Made by a program: the position numbers and the translations under genes. From assembly GCA_010692425.1 (NCBI GenBank), contig JAAHHJ010000018.1, positions 62,001-126,000 on the forward strand: a stretch of 64,000 nucleotides of DNA, in the 5' to 3' direction. Of this stretch, positions 26,659 to 28,076 are shown piece after piece (position 1 is the stretch's first letter; each line of letters begins with the position of its first letter). Under the pieces are notes generated by a model. It was given only the letters and a program-made list of their open reading frames with translations, did not search any database and was not told the origin of the DNA. Origin of the DNA: Symploca sp. SIO3C6. GTDB taxonomy: Bacteria; Cyanobacteriota; Cyanobacteriia; Cyanobacteriales; Coleofasciculaceae.

Positions 26659-26845
26659 GGGCTTCTCTGTCCGTTAGTATTGAATATTGCTGCTATGTAT
26701 ATAAATTAGTCGTTTTCTATAGGTATTGGTGTCGAAAAAAGTAGAAACAAATAGACAATGAAAAAGTAGAAATAAATAGACAATAAATGGACTTTTTTTT
26801 ATTGCATAAGAAATTTTATAAGTAATAAGTAAGCTACTTTTCTCG

Positions 26846-27126
26846 CCGTGGAATTAATTCCACGGCTAATAGCAGAAGTCCACTCAAGTGGACTGAAATT
26901 CAGGTTTTGTCGGCATTTACAGTATTTTCAGACTGGATGTTATACAGTCGTAGCCCTCACCCCCAGCCCCTCTCCCTTGCCTTGGGAGAGGGGAGTAGAT
27001 TATGCACAGAATAAAGGCTTGATGAATTCGCCAACAGTATCGACTTCTGTACTACACAGTGTTAGAAATTGCTGTAGTCCTCTTGTAGAGGACTTTCGCT
27101 ATTAGCATGGGGTTTAAACCCCATGC
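26846..27126. repeat. Composite palindromic element, copy 1 (with nested REP-like hairpin)
   Basis: Order of parts: 20-bp perfect palindrome CCGTGGAATTAATTCCACGG (26846-26865); GCTAATAGC (26865-26873); hairpin AGTCCACT-CA-AGTGGACT (26877-26894); spacer; hairpin AGTCCTCT-TGT-AGAGGACT (27076-27094); GCTATTAGC (27098-27106), the exact reverse complement of the first box; and a 22-bp palindrome, GCATGGGGTTT with its complement (27105-27126). Copy 2 at 27829-27953 has the same order but different terminal palindromes. A further REP-like hairpin sits inside the spacer here. The spurious frame at 26848-27105 is part of this element. Confidence 0.85.
26950..26995. repeat. REP-like CCCCTCTCCC/GGGAGAGGGG hairpin nested in the composite element
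   Basis: CCCTCACCCCCAGCCCCTCTCCC precursor region followed by TTGCCTT and GGGAGAGGGG forms a 10-bp GC stem. It is absent from copy 2 of the element, suggesting a later insertion. Confidence 0.75.
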
Positions 27127-27236
27127 GGTTCTTGATCAGTTAGGGTATTGAGCAATGGAAGAATAGGTGTGGAATACATTTTCTGCTTCCTGTTCCCTGA
27201 TTTTCCATTATCTTCGATGCTAACTATCCAAGTCCT

Positions 27237-27322
27237 ATAGGTAATAAGCCTTAGATAATAAGCAATAAGTGTTCTTGTCCCCACTTATTACTTATTACTT
27301 ATTACTTATTACTTATTACTTA
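27237..27322. repeat. TAATAAG/CTTATTA heptamers in opposed orientation
   Basis: A left block of TAATAAG units and a right block of about five CTTATTA units flank GTGTTCTTGTCCC, giving a hairpin-capable pair. A close relative with the same AAGTGTTCTTGT core is at 35882-35929. The right block runs into the 3' end of the small gene at 27309-27515 and supplies its last codons and stop. Confidence 0.85.
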
Positions 27323-27515
27323 AACTCCCCTCGTCTGTAGGCGGATCGAACACTACCTCAAACTTAATTTCGGCAACTTGCTGACGACACAATCGCATAT
27401 TCTTTTCCGCATCAGCACGACTACGGTAGCGACTGATAACTACCCATTGCATTGGATGGACAAGACGAACAACTGCCCAGGGCTTATCACTTTTTTGATT
27501 GTTCAGATCGTACAT
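27309..27515 (-). CDS. Small conserved hypothetical protein (68 aa)
   Basis: The protein has a soluble alpha/beta look: a strand PWAVVRLVHPMQWVVISRY, a helix SRADAEKNMRLCRQQV, then a strand FEVVFDP. The pattern (strand, strand, helix, strand, with Ser-Arg-Ala-Asp-Ala-Glu before the helix) resembles small SPOR-like or WGR-like folds in which a residue-modified query is read, but no specific family is claimed. A strong AAGGAG site precedes the ATG. The final SNK and stop are encoded by heptamer repeat DNA, so the natural C-terminus may have been altered. A conserved-looking hairpin (27544-27592) lies in its 5' leader. Confidence 0.65.
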   Translation of the reverse strand: MYDLNNQKSDKPWAVVRLVHPMQWVVISRYRSRADAEKNMRLCRQQVAEIKFEVVFDPPTDEGSLSNK

Positions 27516-27543
27516 AATTAGTTTAGCTCCTTACGAGAGTTGG

Positions 27544-27592
27544 AGTCAGAGCCAGCCCCTAGGTTTGGACGCCCCTGGGCTGGCTTCTGACT
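27544..27592 (-). promoter_or_regulatory. Strong hairpin in the 5' leader of the 27309-27515 gene
   Basis: AGTCAGAGCCAGCCC pairs with GGGCTGGCTTCTGACT, 15 bp with one bulged base, across an 18-nt loop. On the minus strand its end lies 28 bases upstream of the ATG and just before the AAGGAG site. It could act as an attenuator, RNA stabiliser or leader structure. A terminator reading on the plus strand is also possible, but no plus-strand gene ends there. Confidence 0.5.
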
Positions 27593-27828
27593 TTGCTGCT
27601 TTTGTTGCAACATTTTAGTTTTAATACTTTTATCAAAAAATAACAAGTAGTTTTTAACAAAAAAATACAGAGAAATTACCCTGTTTATTGTGGAAATCTA
27701 CACAGGCAAATTTTGTTTTTATAGCTATTTAGAATAGGAAGCGATCGCTTTTTTTATCGATGGCAGAAGTTTACTTTTATAGTTATGGTTTTATTCTGCT
27801 TTGAGAAATTAAGTGCACGATTTTTCCC

Positions 27829-27953
27829 GCCCAGAGTTCAAACTCTGGGCTAATAGATAAAGTCCATTAAAATGGACTCCAATTAATATAGATATATCGT
27901 TTAGTCCTCTTTTAGAGGACTTAAGCTATCAGCCAAGGGTTTGAACCCTTGGC
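27829..27953. repeat. Composite palindromic element, copy 2
   Basis: Same order as 26846-27126: terminal hairpin GCCCAGAGTT-CA-AACTCTGGGC (27829-27850), GCTAATAG, hairpin AGTCCATT-AA-AATGGACT (27861-27878), spacer of 24 bases, hairpin AGTCCTCT-TTT-AGAGGACT (27903-27921), GCTATCAGC (27925-27933) and terminal hairpin GCCAAGGGTT-TG-AACCCTTGGC (27932-27953). The inner stems differ from copy 1 at paired positions (CACT/AGTG versus CATT/AATG). The rest of the 27516-28076 spacer holds only AT-rich DNA and one HIP1 site. Confidence 0.85.
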
Positions 27954-28076
27954 GGGTGAATGGATTGGTTCAAGAGTCGATAAAAGTAGAACTATGTAGA
28001 AGTTAGTAGATGAGCGCTGACAACCTCTAATTTGCCTATCTATAATCGACTTAAATAGTTGATTCCGATAGAAATT

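Follow-up and report, generated by a model that had tools for sequence, protein, structure and literature searches.

The interiors of MITEs, which are non-autonomous DNA transposons, are usually regarded as filler. Repeats SDR4-SDR6 of Nostoc, 21-27 nt in length and described by Elhai and colleagues in 2008, are reportedly built around a common hairpin with compensatory changes and are said to lie sometimes inside minitransposons. SDR5 has been found inserted inside HIP1 sites (PMC4390886). Nezha, from Anabaena/Nostoc (Zhou et al. 2008), is presented in the papers that cite it (PMC3733652, PMC10969869) as a bacterial MITE mobilised by a DDE insertion sequence, and 147 MITEs have been counted in Anabaena sp. 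90, where one group has three sets of inverted repeats (PMC3542288). Some of the cyanobacterial GTAG-15 dimers are reported to lie inside long palindromes (PMC3733652). The element analysed here resembles Nezha and the Anabaena sp. 90 MITEs in being short, non-coding, intergenic and multicopy, with inverted-repeat ends, target duplications and ends shared with an insertion sequence. It differs from them, by description, in an interior of two halves and four hairpins that is found order-wide, is kept by pairing and occurs in shells with unrelated ends; on the same comparison by description, the present element may well be among the Anabaena sp. 90 groups. Whereas the SDRs are single short modules in varied places, the present core has four hairpins with fixed order, spacing and boxes. 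The parts of the element were therefore partly anticipated by the SDRs and the Anabaena sp. 90 MITEs; in the literature searched, no description of an order-wide, shell-independent four-hairpin core was found, and searches with sequence strings gave chance matches only.

Two copies of the element lie in the window, a stretch of 64,000 nucleotides from Symploca sp. SIO3C6 (contig JAAHHJ010000018.1). Each contains four hairpins and two boxes, in the order and at the positions proposed by an earlier reading of the letters (here called the sequence-only reading); all hairpins, boxes, cores and ends are given on the forward strand. The left half of copy 1 comprises the outer left hairpin hp1, CCGTGGAATT/AATTCCACGG (26846-26865), the left box GCTAATAGC, kept by sequence (26865-26873), and the inner hairpin hp2, AGTCCACT/AGTGGACT (26877-26894). 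An interruption of ~180 bp (26895-27075, unstranded), which holds a CCCTCACCCC...GGGGAG cyanobacterial repeat and is partly common to the sister genome G001, separates it from the right half, with the inner hairpin hp3, AGTCCTCT/AGAGGACT (27076-27094), the right box GCTATTAGC (27098-27106) and the outer right hairpin hp4, GCATGGGGTTT/AAACCCCATGC (27105-27126). The core of copy 2 (CCCGCC ... GGCGGG, 27826-27958) includes all four hairpins and scores 151 bits with the covariance model R1, a score that is not independent because copy 2 is one of the 20 sequences from which R1 was built. Its hairpins are hp1, CCCAGAGTT/AACTCTGGG (27830-27849); hp2, AGTCCATT/AATGGACT (27861-27878); hp3, AGTCCTCT/AGAGGACT (27903-27921); and hp4, CCAAGGGTT/AACCCTTGG (27933-27952). 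Both of its boxes are degraded, the left to CTAATAG (GCTAATAG, 27849-27856) and the right to GCTATCAGC (27925-27933). As single-stranded DNA both fold with much greater stability than their shuffles, with a z of -8.2 for copy 2 and of -6.1 and -7.8 for the halves of copy 1.

The terminal inverted repeats are degraded or lost in both window copies. In the family alignment the right end of copy 2 (27957-27984) reads GTGAATGGATTGGTTCAAGAGTCGATAA, against GTGAATAGATTGGTGCAAGATCTGAGTAA in the family, and its left inverted repeat is no longer recognisable. At the orthologous site of G001 the stretch 27796-27976 (unstranded), which includes all of copy 2, is missing and ~36 unrelated bases stand instead; copy 1 is present there as a split relic with the left half only, about 27005-27242 being missing. 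The insertion events of the window copies themselves are thus not demonstrated: neither has intact ends, G001 holds only half of copy 1, itself split, and the site of copy 2 in that genome does not have the form of a clean empty site. Two other features of this region were seen. A hairpin, GCCAGCCCCTAGGTTTGGACGCCCCTGGGCTGGC, at 27553-27590 of the window is exactly inverted in the G001 ortholog (GCCAGCCCAGGGGCGTCCAAACCTAGGGGCTGGC), a short inversion between hairpin arms, and AATAAGT/ACTTATT heptamers in tandem flank copy 1 (26825-26835 and 27285-27321).

Searching with copy 2 finds about 30 full or partial copies in this genome, and further places emerge when the left end is used as the query. 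When the copies are aligned in one orientation, the better-preserved ones reach past the boundaries drawn in the sequence-only reading, which fall short of the ~190-bp mobile unit; the repeats that flank it are those lost or degraded in the window. Complete elements are mostly 168-195 bp long and end in a 15-bp terminal inverted repeat, CTCA[G/C]ATCTTGCACC; the left end TTACTCAGATCTTGCACCATTGTTGGTAAGCTACTTTTCCCGCC and the right end GGCGGGTGAATAGATTGGTGCAAGATCTGAGTAA thus give the inverted repeat CTCAGATCTTGCACC on both ends. From the terminal inverted repeat the order runs through a spacer of about 10-25 bp and a ~125-bp core to the mirror-image end. The core consists of two half-elements, inverted and facing each other, each made up of CCCGCC, the outer hairpin, the box GGCT(A/C)ATAGC and the inner hairpin AAAGT...ACT. 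None of the 25 genomic copies examined lies within an ORF of at least 120 aa, and the family is multicopy, non-coding and short (<~300 bp), as MITEs are. In only 43 of 159 copies is the core accompanied by a significant inverted repeat nearby, the rest being decayed or otherwise bounded.

Elements that retain both ends carry the marks of transposition. Exact 5-bp direct repeats flank 13 of 46 distinct two-ended elements, where permuted flanks give an expectation of 0.6 (maximum 4 in 2000), and exact 4-bp repeats flank a further 11 (1.2 expected), for a total of 24 of 46 elements with CTCA[G/C]ATCTTGCACC ends that have exact 4- or 5-bp target duplications. For one copy in the own genome (L004, on C68) the sister genome G001 provides a clean empty site: the filled site reads GAGCAAC-TTTAA-[element]-TTTAA-TTTATAATC and the empty site GAGCAACTTTAATTTATAATC, with two TTTAA and one, respectively. 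With these ends the element transposes as double-stranded DNA and generates target duplications of 4-5 bp.

An insertion sequence with ends of 15-16 bp identical to those of the MITE, and nothing else recognisable in common with it, was found intact in G018 and G036, with 3 copies in G018, and as a relic in the own genome (C228). Its proteins (~350-370 aa) are DDE transposases (Pfam DDE_Tnp_1); their best NCBIfam models are IS701, then IS4, with scores below the curated cut-offs. One intact copy (L079) has a 4-bp target duplication, TAAT. The ends in common suggest that the transposase of this IS701/IS4-like insertion sequence may mobilise the element in trans. The transposase is missing from many element-rich genomes, and G006 showed no two facing ends at a distance of 1-2.5 kb. 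In L079, L080 and L081 the inverted repeat of the insertion sequence overlaps the transposase gene: the last residues of the protein, RCKI, are encoded together with the stop codon by the right end GGTGCAAGATCTGAG (...RCKI*). In the C228 relic (L069, 1736-2137) a 133-aa ORF without Pfam or NCBIfam match lies between the ends, flanked by AGTTCTCT hairpins.

Because of its terminal inverted repeats, target duplications and empty site, and of ends common to an autonomous DDE insertion sequence, the whole element is best regarded as a MITE and not as an RNA gene. The sequence-only reading had offered two options, structured RNA and mobile palindromic element, and it is the second of these that stands. 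A regulatory element, terminator or small RNA could still be carried around by the MITE; the folds are stable, and stem-loop transcripts of MITEs are known from other bacteria (PMC10969869). We regard this as very improbable, however. The window matches no Rfam family at gathering score, both strands of the element read almost the same, no T run follows the hairpins, and sister genomes differ in its presence. A functional RNA strand should moreover tolerate G.U better than A.C, whereas the mismatched cells number 45 G.U (G.T) against 53 A.C in 96 aligned copies and 42 against 67 in the half-element set. As G·T is tolerated no better than A·C, it seems to be pairing of DNA rather than of RNA that is kept.

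That the stems are maintained as pairs and not as sequence, as the sequence-only reading had suggested from differences between the two window copies, is borne out for all four hairpins by the genomic copies collected. When 20 copies are scored against a hand-written structure, pairing is found in 91.4% of cells, against a shuffled mean of 83.5%. Double changes are found in 16 of 36 pairs, a level that none of 500 shuffles matches, nor any slid control. A larger set of 478 distinct half-elements was selected by the box motif alone, with the hairpins ignored. The outer hairpins pair at 7-8 of 8 positions in 387 of these (3 when shuffled) with 108 different arms, and the inner hairpins in 402 (shuffled, again 3) with 23 different arms, the inner figure being biased upward because some loci were fetched by a pattern that requires the inner hairpin or by the covariance model. 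Among the 10 top-scoring copies of G050, hp1 has 65% identity and no mismatched pairs, and in at least one G050 copy the halves can alternatively pair into one long stem. The four hairpins are kept as pairing and the boxes as sequence. The closed cloverleaf that had been envisaged through pairing of the outer boxes, GCTAATAGC with GCTATTAGC, finds no such support, since the boxes do not covary: their variable position is A:G mismatched in 34 of 96 copies, with no compensation. Across copies hairpin mismatches and box deviations showed no correlation, a comparison that is not informative. In G225 and G344 (L327-L345) the inner hairpin appears both as AGTTTACTAAAGTAAACT and as AGTAAACTAAAGTTTACT, in which several neighbouring pairs are swapped together; the GTCC part of the stem, too, is thus free to change.

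Perfect hairpins could also arise with no selection at all. Template switching during replication, an established mechanism for quasi-palindromes in general, would copy one arm onto the other and so make a double change in a single step. The stems do change as perfect pairs: among paralogues within a genome, the compensated share of pair differences is 37% in the own genome and 100% in G050, where every difference between copies is compensated. Copies that are fixed at orthologous sites in sister genomes behave otherwise, with about 18 uncompensated pair changes against 1 compensated, in a comparison of four loci that derives mostly from one of them. Pairing therefore seems to be kept only while copies spread, and its loss from fixed copies argues both against passive repair by template switching and against a host function at the fixed sites. 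The hairpins, furthermore, stand at fixed places beside boxes that are conserved by sequence across the order, and we consider template switching without selection an improbable explanation. The observations in this small set suggest instead that pairing is selected during spread and lost afterwards.

Of the order's 147 genomes, 88 have matches to R1, and these represent 56 of 83 genera. Of 292 genomes drawn across the phylum, 44 match; with two exceptions these belong to the same order, and none lies outside the class. Among the named carriers, identified by DNA pattern, are Microcoleus, Microseira, Argonema, Nostoc, Calothrix, Fischerella, Dolichospermum, Coleofasciculus and Brasilonema. Phage and viral contigs gave no match, and plasmids a single copy, on NC_019760 of Allocoleopsis franciscana PCC 7113. 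G006 is probably this strain, its match on C7 coinciding in position with that on the plasmid, and the filamentous cyanobacterium that carries the window belongs to its family.

The ends vary between lineages. The 125-bp core is found inside at least 3 unrelated repeat-ended shells: CTCA[G/C]ATCTTGCACC in its own family, in Microseira and in one Nostoc; GTAGGGGTTTAGCA-TGCTCATTGGTGTCAACTTAA (GTAGGGG...CATTGGTGTCAACTTAA) in G225 and G344, with a relative in G033; and ATGATGCTGTTGGCAAAT in G050. Further core ends occur as single cases (L227, L257, L287). A search for an empty site of the G050 shell gave a presence/absence difference with complex turnover and no clean junction. The main shell, CTCA[G/C]ATCTTGCACC, conversely encloses other hairpin interiors too. 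With one core in unrelated shells and the main shell around other interiors, shells and interiors are evidently exchanged. Among the other occupants of these ends is a second MITE, 121 bp long, whose long hairpin is a different one (AAAACCCGATTTTT...AAAAATCGGGTTTT) and which has 5-bp target duplications (L058-L060, L064, L070-L072, L076; in G000 at C246:141036-141159, C219:272-395, C112:338045-338169 and C214:17555). In L203 (G006) and L231 (Microseira wollei) the same ends surround still other hairpin-rich interiors, including a CTCGTTCCCAGGC...GCCTGGGAACGAG hairpin.

The occurrence of one core within at least 3 unrelated pairs of ends, some of them in several genomes, and of the first shell with other hairpin interiors raises the question of whether the core itself is mobile. 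It could be a palindromic element of REPIN type that moves separately, as folded single-stranded DNA with a HUH/Y1 or similar enzyme, and that has inserted itself into several MITE shells. The plan of the core, two inverted halves on either side of a linker, their feet fixed and their stems free, has the look of structure-read elements, and the element shares with REPINs and tagged REP dimers (PMC3116915; PMC3733652) not only inverted halves around a linker and compensatory stem changes but also mobility and an intergenic location. It is unlike REPINs in having terminal inverted repeats, target duplications and the ends of a DDE transposase element, with no Y1 transposase flanked by its motifs. 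The GTAG or CGTC tag that stands beside a REP palindrome is absent, and the conserved feet are CCCGCC, GCT(A/C)ATAGC and AAAGT. An association with a Y1/RAYT gene was considered and rejected, as the only intact Y1 transposase gene of the genome (C215) has no matching boxes nearby; a version of the element with a gene between its two halves was likewise rejected, being found at 0 of 83 loci. No clean insertion of the core into an otherwise intact shell was seen, and the clean empty site in G001 (L004) removes core and shell together. An independently mobile core of this kind thus appears unlikely, and we would give the same low standing to the wider proposal that the 125-bp core is a structure-read mobile module whose boxes and hairpins allow it to be recognised as folded DNA, and that is carried in, and moves between, unrelated MITE shells throughout the order.

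We conclude that both window copies are probably relics of a non-autonomous DNA transposon, a MITE, whose core hairpins act in its spread. Transposition by the ends alone does not explain the role of the core, since the interior of an ordinary MITE need not stay structured. The hairpins would act as DNA, either extruded as a cruciform or in a single strand that folds at the replication fork, and might serve a step needed for spreading, for example by holding both ends together. Alternatively, they may be read by a protein together with the boxes, or may allow escape from repair or replication blocks. Selection for pairing would then act on moving lineages and end once a copy is fixed.

The conservation of this interior as paired DNA over dozens of genera, in shells that differ, suggests that the folding of the interior matters for the spread of short elements. 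Two separable predictions follow, that elements with scrambled hairpins would move poorly and that fixed copies would lose their pairing. The covariance model, in addition, annotates a repeat that is common in the intergenic DNA of cyanobacteria.
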